A DNA stretch of 64,000 nt from an uncultured SAR86 cluster bacterium. GTDB lineage: Bacteria; Pseudomonadota; Gammaproteobacteria; Magnimaribacterales; D2472. The notes below the pieces were generated by a model. The model had not been told where the DNA came from. It did not search any database and saw nothing but the letters and a program-made list of their open reading frames with translations. The stretch is taken from NCBI GenBank assembly GCA_902591925.1, contig CACJCN010000001.1, positions 70,001 to 134,000 on the forward strand, in the 5' to 3' direction. The position numbers and the translations under genes were made by a program. Positions 21,670 to 51,714 of this stretch are shown one piece after another (positions within the stretch are counted from its first letter, which is position 1; each line of letters begins with the position of its first letter).

Positions 21670-22089
21670 ATGAAAAAGACATTATTTTTAATATTCTATT
21701 TGTTATGTGGTGGCCATACTAAGGCTGACCAAGATATATCTTTCATGTATTTACAGGATAACGAAATAAAGCCTGCCGACGAGGTATTTATAATGAGCTA
21801 TTCTGAGGACGGGGATGTTTTAAAAGTAAATTGGTCGATTGAAGATGGTTACTATTTATATTTTGATTCGATTCTTATTAAAGAAAATCAAAAAATTGTT
21901 GATTTTGATGTCACTAATGGAATGATTATTGATCATGAAGACGAATTTTTTGGTGAAACTAAAATCATAAGAAATATATTAGAGATTTCGTCTATAGAAG
22001 AGATTGAAACAAATTTAATTGAAATAGCATATCAGGGCTGTTCTGATAGAGGCTTTTGTTATCCAGTTCAAAATAAAAATATTAGATAA
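21670..22089 (+). CDS. Free-standing DsbD N-terminal (alpha) domain protein
   Basis: A 139-residue protein with a signal peptide (MKKTLFLIFYLLCGG, cleaved near KAD) and one DsbD-alpha-like immunoglobulin-fold domain. The active-site segment YQGCSDRGFCYP (Cys124 and Cys130) matches the CxxxxxC pair by which DsbD passes electrons to periplasmic partners such as DsbC. Full DsbD has about 560 residues with eight membrane helices and a thioredoxin domain; none of that follows. aroQ begins 40 bases downstream, matching the common dsbD-aroQ-accB-accC order, so this is probably the surviving front of dsbD. Whether it is functional, reduced by another membrane carrier, or decaying is open. Confidence 0.8.
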   Translation: MKKTLFLIFYLLCGGHTKADQDISFMYLQDNEIKPADEVFIMSYSEDGDVLKVNWSIEDGYYLYFDSILIKENQKIVDFDVTNGMIIDHEDEFFGETKIIRNILEISSIEEIETNLIEIAYQGCSDRGFCYPVQNKNIR

Positions 22090-22129
22090 AATCCTTAAAA
22101 TGCATTTAAATTCTGTTAAAATCCACTAA

Positions 22130-22567
22130 ATGAAGATATTAGTACTCAATGGGCCAAATCTTAATATGCTTGGTATGCGCGAGGAAGATATTTATGGATC
22201 TGAGACATTAGATGATATTGAGGCAAAATTAAAAAATAAAGCTGATAGCAATAAATGTGAAGTTTACTTTTATCAAAGCAATGCCGAGCATGAACTAATA
22301 GATGCAATTCATACAGCTTTTGAAAATGGTACTGATTCAATAATTTTTAATCCTGCGGGTTACACACATACAAGCGTAGCCTTAAGAGATGCAATTTTAG
22401 CTGTGAAAATACCATTTTATGAAGTTCATATATCAGATATTAATTCTAGAGAAGAATTTAGAAAAAAATCTTACTTTAGTGATATTGCAGAAAAAGTTTT
22501 TAGTGGGCATGGAACGAAAGGCTATGTTTTTGCTTTAGAGGAGGCTTTAAAAAATAAGAAGGTATAA
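22130..22567 (+). CDS. aroQ: 3-dehydroquinate dehydratase, type II
   Basis: AroQ (145 aa) removes water from 3-dehydroquinate in the shikimate pathway and forms dodecamers. The start LVLNGPNLNMLGMREEDIYG carries the catalytic tyrosine (within EDIYG) and the flexible-loop arginine; FNPAGYTHTSVALRDA and the EVHISDINSREEFR segment with its catalytic histidine are also typical. Length matches the family. It stands between a DsbD fragment and an AccB fragment, and is the only complete gene of that conserved set. Confidence 0.96.
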   Translation: MKILVLNGPNLNMLGMREEDIYGSETLDDIEAKLKNKADSNKCEVYFYQSNAEHELIDAIHTAFENGTDSIIFNPAGYTHTSVALRDAILAVKIPFYEVHISDINSREEFRKKSYFSDIAEKVFSGHGTKGYVFALEEALKNKKV

Positions 22568-22570
22568 ATT

Positions 22571-22726
22571 ATGGATATAAGAAAAATAAAAACTTTGATT
22601 GAAATGCTAGAAGAATCAAATTTAAAAGAAATTGAAGTAAGTCAGGGAGAAGAGTCAGTTCGAATTACTAAGGGATCAAATAACATAGATGTTAAAGAAT
22701 CTTCTGAGAACGATACTGGTAATTAA
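22571..22726 (+). CDS. AccB (biotin carboxyl carrier protein) N-terminal fragment
   Basis: This 51-residue frame starts 3 bases after aroQ. It begins [16 protein letters not shown] and continues [15 protein letters not shown], an unmistakable match to the first 35 or so residues of the acetyl-CoA carboxylase biotin carrier AccB. It then ends in an acidic, Ser/Asn-rich tail and a stop. The Pro/Ala linker and the biotinyl domain with its EAMKM lysine site are missing, and leuS begins 47 bases later where accC would be expected. The frame is intact, so it may be translated, possibly as a binding or regulatory peptide, or it is a remnant. A working accB must exist elsewhere. Confidence 0.85.
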
Positions 22727-22773
22727 TTAAATTTTAATAATTAGTTCAATTAATAACTTTTAAAATTCTAATA

Positions 22774-25179
22774 ATGAGCTCAACTTATAATCACAAAACA
22801 ATCGAAGAAATCATTCAAAACAAATGGAATGAAGAAAAAAGATATGTTTCTAAAATAGATAAAAGAGAAAAATATTACTGTCTGTCAATGTTTCCTTATC
22901 CTTCTGGAAAATTACATATGGGTCACGTAAGAAATTATACGATTGGTGATGTTATATCTAGATATAAAAGAATGAAAAACTTTAATGTATTTCAGCCTAT
23001 GGGTTGGGATGCTTTTGGTCTGCCTGCAGAAAATGCTGCTATTGCAAACAAAGTAAGTCCAAACGATTGGACAAACCAAAATATTGAAAACATGAAATCA
23101 CAACTACAATCTCTTGGTTTTAGTTATGATTGGTCAAAAGAACTTAGAACATGTGACTCAAGTTACTATAAATGGGAACAATTAATTTTTAAAAAATTTT
23201 ACGACGCGGGTCTTGTTTATAGAAAAAAATCTATGGTTAATTGGGATCCTGAAGATAAGACCGTTCTAGCAAATGAGCAGGTAATAGATGGAAAAGGTTG
23301 GCGCTCTGGAGCTCAAATTGAAATAAAAGAAATAGATCAATGGTTTATAAAAATCACTGACTATGCTGACGAGCTTCTATCTTCACTTGAAGAGCTTGAT
23401 TGGCCAGAAAATGTTAAGCTTATGCAAAAGAATTGGATTGGAAAATCATTTGGTGCTGAGATTGAATATAAAATTGATGCTAGTAAAGAATCACTAATAA
23501 CCTTCTCGACAAGACCAGATACTATCTTCGGAGTATCTTTTCTTGCAATATCTCCCAATCATCCCCTTGCAATAAAGATCGCTAAAGATAATGAAAAAAT
23601 ATCGAACTTTCTTGAAAAATGTAAAGAAGCTAAGGCTGCGGAAGCTGATATGGCAAAGGCAGAAAAACTTGGTATTGATACAAATCTAAGAGTAATTCAT
23701 CCTTTAACTGGAGAAAAATTACCAGTATGGATTGGAAATTTTGTATTGCTTGACTATGGAACAGGGGTTGTGATGGGAGTTCCAGCTCACGATTCAAGAG
23801 ATTATGAATTTGCAAAAAAATATAATCTTAATATCAAAGAAGTGATTCAAAATAATGAAGAGGAGTTACCAAGAACTGAAAATGGAATTTTAATAAATTC
23901 AGATAAATTTAACGGTCTTTCATCAGAAGAAGGATCAAAAAAAATTATCGAAGAATTAGTTAAATTAAAATCTGGTAAACAGCTTATTCAATTCAGGCTA
24001 AGAGATTGGGGAGTAAGTAGGCAAAGATATTGGGGTTGTCCAATACCTGTTATTTATGAAAACGGCGATCCAAAAGTTATTGACGAAATGGATATGCCTG
24101 TTGAGCTACCAAAACTCAAAAAGAATTCGCCACCTATTCCATTAAGTCAAAATGAAGATTTTATAAATTTGGATAATAGTATCTTTAGAGAAAGTGATAC
24201 ATTTGATACCTTTATGGATTCATCTTGGTATTACGCTAGATTTACATCTTCAAACAATATTAATGAAATTTTTGATGAAAACACTAAATATTGGCTACCA
24301 GTAGATTTATATATTGGTGGTATAGAGCATGCTATATTGCATTTGCTATATTCAAGATTTTTTCATAAAGCTCTTCGAGACATTGGATTAGTTGAAGGTG
24401 ATGAACCCTTTAAAAGGTTGCTTACTCAAGGTATGGTTCTTAAAGATGGTGCAAAGATGTCTAAATCGAAAGGTAATACTGTCGACCCGCAATCATACAT
24501 TGAGAAATATGGAGCAGATACCGTTAGGCTTTATATGATGTTTACATCACCACCTGAGCAAAGTTTAGAATGGAGCGAATCATCTGTTGAAGGTGCTTCA
24601 AGATTTTTAAAGAGAATTTGGAGTCTTATTGAAGGAAAAAAATATATTAAACTGGACATGAAATTTGAATTCTCGAAAGAAGAAATTGAGTTAAGAAGAA
24701 AGTGTCACTCTACATTAAAAAAAGTAGAGCATGATTATGAATCAAGATTTTCTTTTAATACTGCTATTGCAGCAATAATGGAGTTGCTAAATTTTATTCC
24801 AGATGAATTCAAAAAAGATAATGCTACAGATGCTCAAAAGTTTTGTCTTAATGAAGCAATTCTATTTTCTCTAAAAATGCTATTTCCAATATCTCCCCAT
24901 ATTTGCGAATATTTATGGACCAGTTTTGTAAATGATGGATCATGCATCGAGTCATCCTGGCCAAAGTATGACGAAGCTATTATTGAATCAGATGAATTCG
25001 AGTTAATAATACAAGTTAATGGTAAAGTTCGTGGAAAGTTAAATATTAGTAAAAATTTAGATGAAGAAACTGTTAAAAATTTATCATTAGAAGTCGAAAA
25101 TGTTAAAAATAACATAGCAGATAGTGAGATTAAAAAAGCTATCTTTGTTAAAGATAAGCTTATAAATTTTGTAATTTAA
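22774..25179 (+). CDS. leuS: Leucyl-tRNA synthetase
   Basis: LeuS charges tRNA-Leu. The protein (801 aa; E. coli 860) has the class I HIGH motif as HMGH in [18 protein letters not shown] (about residue 49), the CP1 editing domain with the conserved [19 protein letters not shown], and the KMSKS loop in [14 protein letters not shown], followed by the anticodon-binding and C-terminal domains. It is followed by lptE and holA as in other gammaproteobacteria. Confidence 0.98.
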
Positions 25180-44578: not shown

Positions 44579-44596
44579 GGAGTAAATTATTGCTCC
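44579..44596 (+). promoter_or_regulatory. Hairpin in the proteorhodopsin 5' leader
   Basis: GGAGTAA (44579-44585) and TTGCTCC (44590-44596) pair over 7 bp, with one G-U, around an ATTA loop. The CTCC of the 3' arm can alternatively pair with the GGAG of the ribosome site at 44610-44613. The two pairings exclude each other. Any regulatory use is inferred. Confidence 0.5.
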
Positions 44597-44619
44597 ACTA
44601 CTTATATAAGGAGTTATAT

Positions 44620-45351
44620 ATGAAATTTTTATTAACATTAGCAGGTGTTGTTGCACTTCCAGCTTTTGCTGCAGATCTAAGCACTAGTGATATGACAGGA
44701 GTGTCATTCTGGATTGTGACAGCTGCTATGCTTGCTGCTACCGTATTCTTCTTTGTTGAAAGAGATAGAGTTCACGGTAAATGGAAAACTTCACTATCAG
44801 TCGCTGGTTTAGTTACTGGTGTGGCGTTTTGGCATTATTTATATATGAGAGGTGTATGGGCCGACACAGGTACTTCTCCTACTGTATATAGATATATAGA
44901 TTGGTTAATCACAGTACCACTTCAAATTATTGAGTTCTACTTAATACTTAAAGTATGTACAAATGTGACATCAAGCCTCTTCTGGAAACTGCTTGTAGCA
45001 TCACTAGTAATGCTAGTATTTGGTTTCATTGGAGAAACTGGCGGAATGAATGCAAACGTTGCAGGTGTTCTTGCTCTACTTGCTTGGTTCTACATAATCT
45101 ATGAAATATTCATGGGTGAAGCTGGTAAGCTTAATGCTGCTAGTGGAAATGCTGCAGCTCAAAGTGCTTTCAGTACAATTAGATTGATTGTTACTTTTGG
45201 TTGGGCTATCTATCCTATTGGATATTGGTTAGGTGTTGGAGATAATCCAGACATGGCTAATGCTAACTTAATCTATAACTATGCAGACTTTTTAAACAAG
45301 ATTGCATTTGGTTTAGCTATATATGTAGCAGCAGTTAGCGATTCAGAATAA
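44620..45351 (+). CDS. Proteorhodopsin, blue-absorbing type, light-driven proton pump
   Basis: This 243-residue retinal protein has a signal peptide (MKFLLTLAGVVALPAFA) and seven membrane helices. Key residues by alignment with green proteorhodopsin: His72 (75), Arg91 (94), proton acceptor Asp94 (97), proton donor Glu105 (108), and retinal lysine Lys227 (231). The spectral-tuning position 105 is Gln102, which gives blue absorption. Gly149 stands where green proteorhodopsin has Phe152 and bacteriorhodopsin Trp138, which corresponds to the gap that admits a carotenoid antenna in xanthorhodopsin. The start follows AAGGAG at 44608-44613 by 6 bases. No retinal-synthesis genes are adjacent. Confidence 0.98.
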   Translation: MKFLLTLAGVVALPAFAADLSTSDMTGVSFWIVTAAMLAATVFFFVERDRVHGKWKTSLSVAGLVTGVAFWHYLYMRGVWADTGTSPTVYRYIDWLITVPLQIIEFYLILKVCTNVTSSLFWKLLVASLVMLVFGFIGETGGMNANVAGVLALLAWFYIIYEIFMGEAGKLNAASGNAAAQSAFSTIRLIVTFGWAIYPIGYWLGVGDNPDMANANLIYNYADFLNKIAFGLAIYVAAVSDSE

Positions 45352-47625: not shown

Positions 47626-48066
47626 ATGAGTACAAATCACGATAAATACCTTGTGCTAAGAGGCAAAAATAAAGATATATATTTTATTCAAAAGCGCCTA
47701 TCTAAAGAAATGTCGAAGATAATAGGTAAAGAATTTATAAAAAAATCTCTTGAAACAACAAATATCCATATCGCAAGACAAAAAAGAGATAAAATTTTAG
47801 AAGAACTTGAACAAATAGCTTTGAATTCTTCAAATAATAAAGAAAATTTGCAATATTCTAGCGAAAATTACACTGTACCCATGAAAAAAGAGTCAGTAAG
47901 TACTAATGATTATAGTATTTTAGAGCATAATTCAAAGACAAAAGGTAACAAATTATTAAATTTTTCATTAAAAAAGCTCAATAAAGAAGATTTAATCGAA
48001 AATATTGATAGAGCTATTCCAATAGGTATTGTTATATTGACTTTATGTATTGCTTTTGTTGTTTAA
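47626..48066 (+). CDS. Small protein with integrase-like N-terminus and C-terminal membrane anchor
   Basis: A 146-residue protein I cannot name. Residues 7-63 (YLVLRGKNKDIYFIQKRLSK...KKSLETTNIHIARQKRDKIL) resemble the N-terminal DUF6538-type segment of tyrosine recombinases, where the pattern is YL..R...Y.FRRR.P.....G...I..SL.T.d...A. No core-binding or catalytic recombinase domain follows. Instead comes a polar linker (64-125) and a hydrophobic tail IPIGIVILTLCIAFVV at the very end, as in tail-anchored proteins. The promoter carries repeats that might be its own binding sites. It is A/T-rich and overlaps the converging kinase gene by 35 bases. Confidence 0.6.
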   Translation: MSTNHDKYLVLRGKNKDIYFIQKRLSKEMSKIIGKEFIKKSLETTNIHIARQKRDKILEELEQIALNSSNNKENLQYSSENYTVPMKKESVSTNDYSILEHNSKTKGNKLLNFSLKKLNKEDLIENIDRAIPIGIVILTLCIAFVV

Positions 48067-48868
48067 TCTTATTCTTTAATAAATTTATATAATCTTTATC
48101 GAAATAGTTTCTTTTGTATTCATTTATGTAATTAGCCCAAATTAATTCAGTATAAATATTCATTAAGCTCCACTTTTGAATTTTTATATTAATGCTGTCA
48201 TTAATTTCATCTACTCCATAACCTTTAAGTAATTTATTTTTTTCTAATGTTTTGAGATTAAATGAGTCAATTAATTTAGATAAGTCTGAATACTTACTAT
48301 TAATACTTAAATATTCAAAATCAATAAAAACAATTTTATTATTTTTGAACATCACATTTGAAGAATTTAAATCATTATGACTAAGAACATAATTTTCTTT
48401 ACCTACATTTAGTTCATTAAATAGATCAACGGCATCATTAAAATATTTATTATCTAATTCTGATGAAGATACATTTAGATATAAATTAAATTGATCTTCA
48501 AAAGTTTTTATTTTTTTATGTGATGTAATTTCATGTAGCTCTTTTAATTTTTTTCCAAGTTGATAAGAATTATTAAATAGTTTGTCAGATGAATCCTTTT
48601 CAAAATATTCGTAAATAATTAACCCTGAATGTAAATCGTGAAATAAAATTTTTGGAGTAATATTTTTTGTAACAATTTTTTTGATTATTTCATTTTTTAA
48701 ATATTCATTAATGATTAATTTAAATTTATTTTTTTTTGATAACTTAAAAATTGATTTAGTGTTATTAAATTCTCCTAGAAATATTTGTGAAGTCTCTCCA
48801 TCACTAATCTGTTCTATGACTTTAAAATCATAATTTTCTTTTTTTAAAATTGTCTCTAATTCTTTCAT
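48032..48868 (-). CDS. Choline/thiamine kinase-like phosphotransferase, probable thiamine salvage kinase
   Basis: A 278-residue kinase of the APH/choline kinase fold. The catalytic loop is VLSHNDLNSSNVMF (HxDxxxxN) and the metal-binding motif is IVFIDFEYLSIN. The family includes choline kinase, LicA and the thiamine kinase ThiK. It overlaps the PnuC-family transporter by 4 bases in an operon headed by a TPP riboswitch, so phosphorylation of imported thiamine is the best guess: it would trap the vitamin and lead towards TPP. Substrate is inferred from context only. Confidence 0.8.
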   Translation of the reverse strand: MKELETILKKENYDFKVIEQISDGETSQIFLGEFNNTKSIFKLSKKNKFKLIINEYLKNEIIKKIVTKNITPKILFHDLHSGLIIYEYFEKDSSDKLFNNSYQLGKKLKELHEITSHKKIKTFEDQFNLYLNVSSSELDNKYFNDAVDLFNELNVGKENYVLSHNDLNSSNVMFKNNKIVFIDFEYLSINSKYSDLSKLIDSFNLKTLEKNKLLKGYGVDEINDSINIKIQKWSLMNIYTELIWANYINEYKRNYFDKDYINLLKNKIKQQKQYIKSI

Positions 48869-49434
48869 CTATATTCTAGTAATTTTTTATTCCAAGATTG
48901 ATATCCAAAAATAATAATTATTAGATATATAAAAAATAATAAAGAAGTTAGATATAGCTCTCTTGAGAAAAAAAGATATATAGATATTGAATCAATCACA
49001 AACCAGTAGATCCAATTTTCAATAATCTTTTTTGCTACCATGTATGTCGTGATAATCGCTCCAAATGTTGTAAATGCATCTAAAAATGGAAATACTGCAT
49101 TAGTATATTTTTCAAGAATTTTTCCTGAAATTATTGCAAGTATCACTACTAAGCTTATTGCGTATAAATGCTTTATTTTTTTCCATTTTTTAATCCTTAC
49201 AACACTTACTTCATTTGATACTTTATTCCATTGATTCCAACCATAAATGGCCATGGAAATGTAAAAAATTTGCAAAATTGCCTCCATTAATAGGCCAGCA
49301 TCAAGCATTATAAAGAAGTATAGAGATGCACTAATTATAGCCGCATACCAACACTTTATGTCTTCTTTAGCAGCTAAGACTAAATAAAGTATTGCTGTGA
49401 TAACAGCAATAATCTCTGGAATTAAATTTAACAC
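48865..49434 (-). CDS. pnuT: PnuC-family vitamin transporter, probable thiamine transporter PnuT
   Basis: A 189-residue inner-membrane protein with about seven hydrophobic helices and the family features LEIYGWNQW-like IYGWNQWNK, FTTFGAIITTYMVAKKIIENWIYWFVIDSISI and the terminal YQSWNKK. PnuC relatives take up nicotinamide riboside (PnuC), riboflavin (PnuX) or thiamine (PnuT) by facilitated diffusion driven by later phosphorylation. The TPP riboswitch upstream and the kinase gene downstream point to PnuT. It starts 5 bases after the TonB receptor stop. Confidence 0.88.
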   Translation of the reverse strand: MLNLIPEIIAVITAILYLVLAAKEDIKCWYAAIISASLYFFIMLDAGLLMEAILQIFYISMAIYGWNQWNKVSNEVSVVRIKKWKKIKHLYAISLVVILAIISGKILEKYTNAVFPFLDAFTTFGAIITTYMVAKKIIENWIYWFVIDSISIYLFFSRELYLTSLLFFIYLIIIIFGYQSWNKKLLEYR

Positions 49435-49439
49435 GGAAA

Positions 49440-51539
49440 CTAAAAATTATATCTAAGTGAAATGCCAATATTCTTAGGATCTCCTTGTCTTCTGTATAGA
49501 GTATCAATAAAGTTAGGCGCTTCGTTGCCAAAGAAAAATCCTCTAGTTGAATAGTATTTATCAAACAAATTTCTTATCCACATATCAGCAGTAAAATTAG
49601 CATTTGAGTATCCAAAAGTTAAGTTAGTTAATTGATAGCTTTTAGACTGATTGTCATGAGAATCTGAATAATAAAAACTACTTTTCCCATTGATGTCTAA
49701 TTTTAAATAGAAGTTATTTTTAAGATTTAAATTTCCACCAATAGAATATGAATGCTCGGGTGCATGAGCTTGTGATCTATTTTCTAGATCAATTCTTGAT
49801 TCCCAATTTTTTATGTTTGTTTTAAGGAATCCCAAATTAGCATATACATATAAATTATTTGCTATTAAATAACTTGAAGTAATTTCAATTCCATAGTTCT
49901 CTCCCTCTGCAGCATTCTGTGTTAGATATGAAAAAGTGTTAGGGTCACTTGGATCAACTTGTCTTGAAATCAAAACTTGTTGATCTTTTCTTTTAGAGAA
50001 AAATATTACAAGTGAGTAATTCAGATCTCTACCTTTTAGGTATGAACTTACACCCAATTCATAATTTGTTAAATATTCAGGATCGTAAATAAGAGATTGT
50101 TTTACTAAATTATCTGTAGCATCAAGACCTAAATTAAATCCACCTTGTTTATATCCTCTTGCTATTGAAAAATAAATATTTGAATCATCATTATTTTTTT
50201 TGACTAGCGAAATTTTTCCTCCACTCATACTATCTGAGGGACTAAAAGATTCATTATTTGAATCTTTATATTTAGAGTCCCAATTTTCCAATCTCAAACC
50301 AAAAGCAAGTTTAGTTTTATCTGTTAAAAAATAATCAACATTTCCGAACACTGATAAATTTTCAGATTTATAATTTCTTGAAATCGAAGATTCACTTGCA
50401 TATGGACCAAATGGATCAGACGGATCCCCATAAACCCCATCGTCTATAGTTAGATTTGATTCATCTAATTTACTAAAATCGAAACCAAAGACCCATTCAA
50501 ATGGATTATTTTGAGAAAAATCCTTATTTTTTGACAAAAAACGTATTTCTTGACTAAAAGTATCTCTTTTTCTTAATGTTTCAGAAAAATAATCATATGT
50601 ATATGGAAAGTGTGAGTCAGGATTACCCCAATCTGCATCATAACTGAAAACAACGTCAGTTTTTGTTGAGCTAGTTAAACTTTGGAGATCAAATTTATTT
50701 AAATTCTTAGTTATTTTTATTCCAATTGAGTCTGTTTTTTGTGAATCCATTCCAGGACGATCTGATAAAGTATTTAAGCTTCCATCAATTGTCCAAATAT
50801 CAGCTGGGTCATCCATATCAACTTTTGAAACAAGAAAATTAATATTTGTAGTGTCACCAATTTCCCAATCCAGTTTGTAACGTAAAGTTAGCTCATCTTT
50901 TTTTGATGTATCTGACTTATTTAAGTAAATATTTTTTCTAAATCCATCAGCATAGTCAGTTCTCATTACTAAACGATATTTCATTTTTTTATTCTTTAAT
51001 GGTCCTCCAAACGCAACACCGATATTTTGAGTTCCATAATCTCCGACAGTTAGCTCAGAAGTTCCTTCAAATTCATCTGTCGGATCTTTGGTCTTTATGT
51101 AAATTAATCCTGCTAAAGCATTCGCGCCAGTTCTCGATCCTTGAGGCCCACGAAATACTTCAACTTGATCAACATCAAATAAAGTTGCAATACCTCCCTG
51201 ACCAGAATAATCAATATCATCAATAAGAAATCCTACAGAAGAATTTGGTGTTCCTTGATAGCCAGATCTTTCACCAATACCTCTTATCTGAAAATATCTA
51301 GCTCTTGAATCTGAAGCTGCATAATTTAAATTTGGTACAAGATATGAAAGTTGCTGAAAATGTTTTACAGCTTGTGACCTAATTTTTTCTGACTGAATAA
51401 TTAAGATACTTGAATCTTCTTCAATTATAGATTTTTCTCGATACTCACCTTTTACAATTATTTCCTCGATGTCCTGTGAAAAGACATTAAATGTAAACAC
51501 CAAAGGCAATAAAAATAGAATTTTTTTTCTGATATACAT
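49440..51539 (-). CDS. TonB-dependent outer-membrane receptor, probably for thiamine
   Basis: A 699-residue receptor with signal peptide (MYIRKKILFLLPLVFTFNVFS), a TonB-box-like start IEEIIVKGEY, a plug domain (LVPNLNYAASDSRARYFQIRGIG, VEVFRGPQGSRTGANALAGLIYIKTK), and a 22-strand barrel ending in the usual aromatic residue (SLRYNF). I chose the ATG at 51539 over one 39 bases upstream because it gives a clean signal peptide and lies 8 bases after GGAGG in the riboswitch. TPP control and the PnuT and kinase genes behind it indicate thiamine or a thiamine precursor as the ligand. Confidence 0.9.
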   Translation of the reverse strand: MYIRKKILFLLPLVFTFNVFSQDIEEIIVKGEYREKSIIEEDSSILIIQSEKIRSQAVKHFQQLSYLVPNLNYAASDSRARYFQIRGIGERSGYQGTPNSSVGFLIDDIDYSGQGGIATLFDVDQVEVFRGPQGSRTGANALAGLIYIKTKDPTDEFEGTSELTVGDYGTQNIGVAFGGPLKNKKMKYRLVMRTDYADGFRKNIYLNKSDTSKKDELTLRYKLDWEIGDTTNINFLVSKVDMDDPADIWTIDGSLNTLSDRPGMDSQKTDSIGIKITKNLNKFDLQSLTSSTKTDVVFSYDADWGNPDSHFPYTYDYFSETLRKRDTFSQEIRFLSKNKDFSQNNPFEWVFGFDFSKLDESNLTIDDGVYGDPSDPFGPYASESSISRNYKSENLSVFGNVDYFLTDKTKLAFGLRLENWDSKYKDSNNESFSPSDSMSGGKISLVKKNNDDSNIYFSIARGYKQGGFNLGLDATDNLVKQSLIYDPEYLTNYELGVSSYLKGRDLNYSLVIFFSKRKDQQVLISRQVDPSDPNTFSYLTQNAAEGENYGIEITSSYLIANNLYVYANLGFLKTNIKNWESRIDLENRSQAHAPEHSYSIGGNLNLKNNFYLKLDINGKSSFYYSDSHDNQSKSYQLTNLTFGYSNANFTADMWIRNLFDKYYSTRGFFFGNEAPNFIDTLYRRQGDPKNIGISLRYNF

Positions 51540-51540
51540 A

Positions 51541-51623
51541 TGCAATTCCTCCGCAACTATTGTGTTGATCAGGTTCAAAGAGTTTCAAAAGATCTCAGGC
51601 AAAAAGCCACCCCTTTGCATCAA
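51541..51623 (-). ncRNA. TPP riboswitch (THI element)
   Basis: On the minus strand the conserved aptamer elements appear in order: GGGGTG, CTGAGA, TTTGAACCTGATC and GCGGAGGAA. Helices can be traced: P1 TGCAA/TTGCA, P2 CAAAGGG/CTCTTTG (one G-U), P3 GGC/GCC around TTTTT, and P4-5 CAAC/GTTG. The 3' element GCGGAGG doubles as the Shine-Dalgarno sequence, 8 bases before the receptor ATG at 51539. TPP binding should therefore directly hide the ribosome site. It controls the TonB receptor, PnuT and kinase operon. Confidence 0.96.
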
Positions 51624-51714
51624 TTATTATGTTAATAAATATTTTAATAATATGAAAGTAACTATAGTAAATAAAATATATCTATAAAAATTTTGCTTTC
51701 TTTATAACTTCATA

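Follow-up and report, generated by a model that had tools for sequence, protein, structure and literature searches.

The window analysed here is a stretch of 64,000 nucleotides contained in a SAR86 draft genome of 1.2 Mb (G000, 93% complete), whose nearest named records are uncultured SAR86 genomes, including AG-918-K05, AG-359-G11 and AH-326-J15. The locus under study comprises a series of genes that all lie on the + strand. The first encodes a DsbD alpha domain of 139 amino acids (positions 21670..22089; PF11412, DsbD_N, E 4.7e-16 over residues 32-137) and is followed by a complete aroQ encoding a type II 3-dehydroquinate dehydratase of 145 amino acids (22130..22567; PF01220, E 4.7e-56 over residues 2-138), which also scored over the cut-offs of TIGR01088 and NF003804 and is full-length for a type II dehydroquinase. 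Three nucleotides past the aroQ stop codon begins a truncated accB of 51 codons (22571..22726), hereafter the stub, preceded by a Shine-Dalgarno-like GAAGG (22558..22562) that was read from the sequence within the 3' end of aroQ, 8 nt upstream of the start codon (ATG) of the stub. The stub consists of a conserved AccB N-terminal domain (codons 1-34, 22571..22672) and, as comparison of stub tails indicated, a variable polar tail of 17 residues (22673..22723) that is probably a remnant of the AccB linker. A gap of 47 nt (22727..22773), where synteny places the biotinyl part of accB and accC in relatives that have acetyl-CoA carboxylase (ACC), separates it from leuS (22774..25179). A first-pass annotation of this DNA had described a DsbD alpha domain, a complete aroQ and an AccB-like frame of 51 amino acids, and all three reading frames are in place.

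Elsewhere in the window, a TPP riboswitch on the - strand (51529-51624; Rfam RF00059, 56 bits, gathering threshold 54.3) lies at the start of a TonB-receptor-like ORF (49440-51578), which is followed by PnuC/PnuT-like (48865-49434) and kinase-like (48032-48868) ORFs, all three named by eye; together they are likely to form a thiamin uptake operon. The window also contains part of an rRNA operon (1-2025, - strand; a complete 16S and positions 1-302 of 23S) and an ORF (44590-45351, + strand) that by eye looks like proteorhodopsin.

The stub was assigned to AccB, the biotin carboxyl carrier protein (BCCP), on the basis of its N-terminus. Residues 1-39 matched TIGR00531 at 31.5 bits (cut-off 115.2), residues 1-35 aligned with residues 21-55 of 4hr7_B, the AccB of the heteromeric E. 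coli ACC (E 3.2e-9, 23 of 35 residues identical), and the sequence carries the pattern MDIRKIKxLIExL...SVRI of the AccB N-terminal domain. No Pfam model matched the stub over any cut-off, nor was there a Biotin_lipoyl match; the biotinyl domain with its biotin-accepting lysine is absent. The stub differs in this from AccB of heteromeric ACC, and further in that AccC, AccA and AccD were not found in G000.

The usual gene order in SAR86 is dsbD-alpha, aroQ, accB, accC, leuS, and the stub sits behind aroQ just as accB does in ACC-bearing members of the group. Among 20 SAR86 loci with a full accB (139-151 aa), leuS was found downstream in all 20 and accC (446-450 aa) was tagged between accB and leuS in 19, having been missed by motif in the remaining one (L137). 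Because leuS follows accB and accC in ACC-bearing loci, it is the normal downstream neighbour of accC and did not replace it, contrary to the first-pass annotation.

A model of AccB residues 1-34 matched 175 of the 203 genomes of the order. Among the matches listed, frames too short for a biotinyl domain occurred in at least 17 genomes of the genus of the window (own genome included), in G134 (genus g14, single contig, 95% complete), in G139 (genus g15, 75% complete) and in G125. The last was omitted from the stub count: each of its accB, accC and leuS is split into short frames (L254 on G125:C1), as from indel errors, and its accB frame of 91 amino acids was therefore taken as a sequencing error. 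In all 17 genus loci and in G134 and G139, a stub of 51-58 amino acids is followed by leuS without accC, the junction between stub and leuS being unbroken in every case; aroQ was tagged upstream in all of these loci except that of G139, where a gap of the right size for aroQ lies between dsbD-alpha and the stub. In sequence the G139 stub is more like the AccB of its relatives than that of the genus of the window, and the stub of G134 is its own. Mapping the stub label onto a 39-row LeuS tree required four changes, at least two of them forced by well supported branches, and a single clade for the 19 stub rows was rejected (AU test, p 8.7e-6). The same AccB cut is therefore present in more than one lineage, and its occurrence in 17 genomes of one genus and in one genome each of two others can be attributed neither to chance nor to assembly error. 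Full-length accB does occur in congeners (for example, G015), but in other species, and full-length dsbD was not found there; no stub was frameshifted in the species that have stubs.

The conserved part of the stub is under strong purifying selection. Over codons 1-34 of 13 loci (78 pairs), pS was 0.70 and pN 0.041, giving a pN/pS of 0.059 against 0.222 for AroQ and 0.191 for LeuS in the same set of loci; these are simple counts near silent-site saturation, so that the ratios are rough, and the contrast is large. The same 34 codons gave 0.080 in nine ACC-bearing sisters and 0.097 in six other loci with a full accB. Variable columns numbered 7, 2 and 30 of 34 at codon positions 1, 2 and 3, respectively, indicating that amino acids rather than nucleotides are conserved; conservation at the RNA level was accordingly rejected. 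Across 22 sequences (13 stubs and 9 full-length proteins from ACC-bearing sisters), 28 of the 34 positions held a single residue and none showed a fixed difference between the two groups, whereas the stub tails vary between loci. There is thus no sign of relaxation after the loss of ACC. For AccB, the first-pass suggestion of trimming to a useful domain agrees with these near-invariant residues and with the recurrence of the same cut in more than one lineage.

The same suggestion for DsbD was not borne out. The frame does encode a single alpha domain, as had been noted, with an N-terminal signal-like stretch and a C-x5-C pair in YQGCSDRGFCYP, both cysteines being kept, and it is without membrane or C-terminal thioredoxin domains (NF001419, 88.1 bits against a cut-off of 330, profile positions 2-136 of 574). 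However, 37 of 38 SAR86 loci examined, a set that includes full and truncated accB and represents some species twice, have a short ORF (136-168 aa) made up of this one domain and carrying the cysteine motif; in a separate reading of the G134 locus, no dsbD-alpha was found by cysteine motif. As the domain stands alone beside full and truncated accB alike, the single-domain form is an old feature of SAR86 that is common across the order, and not the product of local erosion. Nor is an electron source missing, since G000 encodes a separate DsbD/ScsB-like protein of 674 amino acids (DsbD_N, DsbD_TM and Thioredoxin_7), a membrane reductase of the kind that the first-pass annotation had proposed to look for; DsbD_TM matches were obtained in 32 of the 34 genus genomes, 31 of them over cut-off.

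ACC is regarded as catalysing the committed step of fatty acid synthesis, and also as a target for antibacterials. Among the 34 genus genomes, an AccC-size biotin carboxylase frame was found in 12 and AccA- or AccD-size carboxyltransferase frames in 14. Twenty genomes lacking AccC-, AccA- and AccD-size frames are referred to as ACC-minus and 13 as ACC-plus, among them G031, which was so called on AccA and AccD though it gave no AccC match; G004, with AccD alone, was counted as neither. The stub was seen in 17 of the 20 ACC-minus genomes (own genome included), and the other three (G014, G033 and G040), without an accB match, were counted as unknown. These genomes are 60-94% complete and mostly drafts, so that single absences mean little, but four subunits encoded at three or more places and missing from 20 genomes cannot be gaps. 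In G000 itself no AccA, AccC, AccD or fused ACC was found and there was no PF02785 match; the one PF01039 match was of the methylcrotonyl-CoA carboxylase (MCC) type, and the only PF00364 match lay in a SucB-like protein. A fused or relocated ACC was therefore rejected as far as this draft shows. The Biotin_lipoyl match in the SucB-like E2 (L001, G000:C3:129555-129767) is the sole one in the genome; no lipoyl domain of a pyruvate dehydrogenase E2 was found in G000, an absence that may reflect either incompleteness or genuine loss.

Outside the genus, G134 and G139 each gave one biotin carboxylase and one carboxyltransferase match, all of the MCC type, while their relatives G152, G143, G136, G130 and G087 additionally carry AccC, AccA and AccD (five of five searched for both). 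ACC has thus been lost in more than one SAR86 lineage. The first-pass annotation had expected ACC to be supplied from elsewhere; this was too mild, as neither AccA, AccC and AccD nor a fused ACC turned up in G000 (93% complete), where only an MCC-type carboxylase was seen. One genome is at odds with the pattern: G004 is close to G000 (FabD 95% and MCC beta 99.8% identical), yet has AccD in its usual slot and no match to the malonyl-CoA decarboxylase described below. AccC and AccA were not found in this genome (76% complete), flanking identity drops towards the accD slot, and the picture resembles that of a recombined segment or of a mixed assembly. No paper on ACC loss in SAR86 was found in the part of the literature searched, and the strings 'malon' and 'acetyl-coa' are absent from the main text of PMC11582366.

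The slot behind trpA, which holds accD in the sister genomes, contains an ORF of 418-420 amino acids in ACC-minus genus genomes. It mostly overlaps the end of trpA exactly as accD does, although the longest frame in G017 begins somewhat earlier. The ORF encodes malonyl-CoA decarboxylase (MCD), as judged by its match to 4ksf (E 6.6e-98) and to PF05292 over cut-off (G000:C4:11637-12080, E 2.9e-70); no NCBIfam match was obtained, and FYSIS and FHxGNGA motifs, which we take to be catalytic, are present. Within the genus, MCD was found in 15 of the 20 ACC-minus genomes and in none of the 13 ACC-plus ones (Fisher p 3e-5, the genomes being related and the difference probably reflecting one event). 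In all 10 ACC-minus loci of the genus where trpA was matched, MCD occupied the accD slot, so that the loss within the genus may be a single event; G037 and G012 gave no trpA match. The gene is under purifying selection (pN/pS 0.141 over nine genomes). MCD stands alone in the accD slot, and by eye no synthetase, malonate transporter or other malonate gene adjoins it in nine stretches of 5-20 kb each (from G134, G139, G143, G126, G114, G183, G148, G000 and G122).

When the slots of G004 and G000 are compared (L218 on G004:C12 and L375 on G000:C4), accD and MCD behave like alternative alleles: the flanking DNA is 88-94% identical, TrpA 90% and a CvpA-like protein 85%, and the next protein (SPOR-like by eye) 48%, a pattern that resembles homologous replacement.

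MCD extends beyond the genus, having been found in 54 of the 203 genomes of the order, including members of g11, g12 and g15 and three f2 genomes. Outside the genus these genomes mostly have full accB frames, among the matches listed (AccC was sought in some only), and the presence of MCD alone hence does not imply loss of ACC. G134 and G139 have MCD too, in a neighbourhood that by eye is like that of other g15 genomes, and the place of accD in these two is a bare gap of 86 and 70 bases, respectively, between trpA and the next gene. In an MCD tree covering 36 of the 54 genomes, all 12 ACC-minus rows formed one clade (96/94) in which g1 and G134 grouped together (100/100); the placement of G139 is uncertain, the alternative having an AU p of 0.057. 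In the set of genomes looked at, the combination of MCD with a carboxylase of a kind seen in g1 was confined to ACC-minus genomes.

This carboxylase, an MCC-type alpha/beta pair, is the only biotin-dependent carboxylase seen in ACC-minus genomes. Alpha (about 640 aa) combines biotin carboxylase and BCCP domains (BC-BCCP) and beta (552 aa) is the carboxyltransferase (CT), both of the methylcrotonyl-CoA carboxylase family. In G041 the pair is clustered with genes for a TetR regulator, AtuA (PF07287), an enoyl-CoA hydratase and an acyl-CoA dehydrogenase; beta best matches the 3-methylcrotonyl-CoA carboxylase structure 3u9r (E 3.2e-140) and alpha the structures 9yx0, 9tps, 8j4z and 3u9s. These matches place the G041 pair in the MCC family, with its substrate a prediction from homology. 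Alpha, beta or both were found in 16 of the 20 ACC-minus genus genomes, which, given their incompleteness, fits presence in all; G003, G014, G042 and G043 (75-87% complete) showed neither. The lack of a biotin carboxylase C domain match in G000 is explained by truncation of its alpha gene at the edge of a 6.3 kb contig.

For both subunits, the genes of G134 and G139 fall within the clade formed by genus g1. G134 beta shares 97% identity with the G000 protein, and G139 alpha shares 87% with that of G041 but 70-75% with those of three congeners. Such nesting was seen in the alpha tree for none of the 11 ACC-plus genomes from other genera (Fisher p 0.013, from quick trees and 2 genomes against 11). 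The beta tree held 32 rows, without G004 and a G038 fragment, and the alpha tree 39, without G004, the truncated G000 gene and a fragment from G082. ACC-plus g1 members carry the same MCC-type kind, and there were no columns in either alpha or beta with residues specific to ACC-minus carboxylases. The carboxylase genes beside AtuA (G041 L193:7655-15649 and kin) fall into two divergent kinds within one genus, the second being found in ACC-minus G002, G009, G017, G035, G038 and G040 and shared with ACC-plus G039. MCC-type carboxylase genes seem to move between SAR86 genera. We infer that the genus received MCD from a G134-like source and that G134 and G139 received g1-like carboxylase genes, although the direction of transfer is not proven.

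FabD and AcpP of fatty acid synthesis are retained. A FabD match was obtained in 26 of 34 genus genomes, 13 of them over cut-off (G000: 259.3 bits against 260.9), the gene adjoining a FabG-like ORF (by eye) and acpP, and AcpP was present in G000, G041 and G002. FabD gave a pN/pS of 0.425 in ACC-minus (14 loci) and 0.467 in ACC-plus genomes (7 loci), based on 21 of the 26 loci, and AcpP 0.053 and 0.063, respectively, based on the 14 of these loci in which a motif located it. Excluding pairs whose pS did not exceed 0.1 left 90 of 91 for FabD and 44 of 45 for AcpP in the ACC-minus sets. That FabD is no less constrained in ACC-minus genomes suggests that malonyl-CoA is still made and used.

We give about even credence to an explanation in which the N-terminal domain of AccB works independently of ACC and malonyl-CoA comes from the MCC-type carboxylase, with MCD as a counterweight. 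The first element is well supported, and the second is an inference. The MCC-type enzyme (or a malonate-activating ligase) would provide malonyl-CoA to FabD, MCD would set its level in place of the control exerted by ACC itself, and the stub would serve in regulation or as an adaptor. In E. coli, binding of AccC also depends on the N-terminal part of BCCP. As residues 1-34 are kept equally with and without AccC, the partner of the domain should exist in both kinds of cell. By analogy, that partner may be the biotin carboxylase domain of the surviving carboxylase, in the manner of the small non-catalytic 'glue' subunits of bacterial acyl-CoA carboxylases (Gago et al., cited in the available part of PMC11926652): the stub, too, would be a small non-catalytic protein in a cell with a BC-BCCP/CT carboxylase, but it does not adjoin the carboxylase genes and the likeness is one of analogy. 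Alternatively, the stub may regulate a gene, as the N-terminus of E. coli AccB is reported to do in autoregulation of accBC (James and Cronan, 2004, as cited in the part of PMC3896788 seen), except that accC is absent here and the target would have to be another gene. Beyond this autoregulation and the non-catalytic subunits, the part of the literature searched yielded nothing on the AccB N-terminus. For the carboxylase, the ACC of Chloroflexus aurantiacus offers a partial precedent, in that a fused BC-BCCP, as in SAR86 alpha, takes part in making malonyl-CoA; there the partners are separate CT-beta and CT-alpha, whereas here the partner is an MCC-type beta (PMC11077971, in the part available). 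Several points count against this explanation. The MCC-type enzyme is only a candidate for ACC activity and has no ACC-minus-specific residue; its kind is shared with ACC-plus sisters, and the second kind of six ACC-minus genomes with ACC-plus G039; MCD normally destroys malonyl-CoA, which fits poorly with malonyl-CoA scarcity; MCD is also present in other genera, where full accB frames predominate, and its tree leaves G139 loosely placed; and G004, with AccD in the slot and no MCD, and the four ACC-minus genomes without an MCC-type gene do not conform. Stated as AccB residues 1-34 being an independent module with a partner in cells with and without ACC, and malonyl-CoA coming from a module of MCC-type carboxylase and MCD that was horizontally assembled more than once, the explanation falls slightly short of even credence.

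Other sources of malonyl-CoA were weighed against this. Malonate from sea water, or a precursor of it, could be activated by a MatB-kind synthetase and feed FabD, with MCD burning the excess and the stub being a separate matter; the restriction of MCD within the genus to ACC-minus genomes, where it was read in accD's own slot, its purifying selection and the retention of FabD would suit such a route, which we nevertheless hold to be rather unlikely in view of the nine MCD stretches with no synthetase or malonate transporter adjoining. The cells might instead be fatty-acid auxotrophs living on the membrane lipids of others, with ACC dispensable and FabD and MCD of minor importance. Beta-oxidation and lipid use are central to SAR86 according to the part of PMC11582366 available, but FabD is unrelaxed relative to ACC-plus sisters and MCD would lack a substrate without malonyl-CoA, which makes scavenging improbable. 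With regard to the stub, its spacing of 3 nt from aroQ and 47 nt from leuS, all in one direction, would suit a passive relic retained for translational coupling between these two genes or for an RNA signal; with amino acids conserved rather than nucleotides, and tails free to vary, we regard this as highly improbable. The chance that accB and accC were merely lost from drafts in assembly or binning is negligible: most of the genomes are indeed drafts, but the junction recurs unbroken, AccA and AccD, encoded elsewhere, are missing from the same genomes, and the single-contig G134 is ACC-minus as well.

If the preferred explanation, an ACC-independent AccB domain alongside malonyl-CoA supply by the MCC-type carboxylase and MCD, is true, a free-living, abundant lineage with FabD and ACP manages without the four ACC subunits, and the ACC step would be replaceable. 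The repeated survival of a piece of 34 residues would also expose a second function of AccB, one that may also apply to E. coli and its relatives, in which AccB starts with a clearly related stretch, and the 51-residue stub is a directly testable object in this respect.
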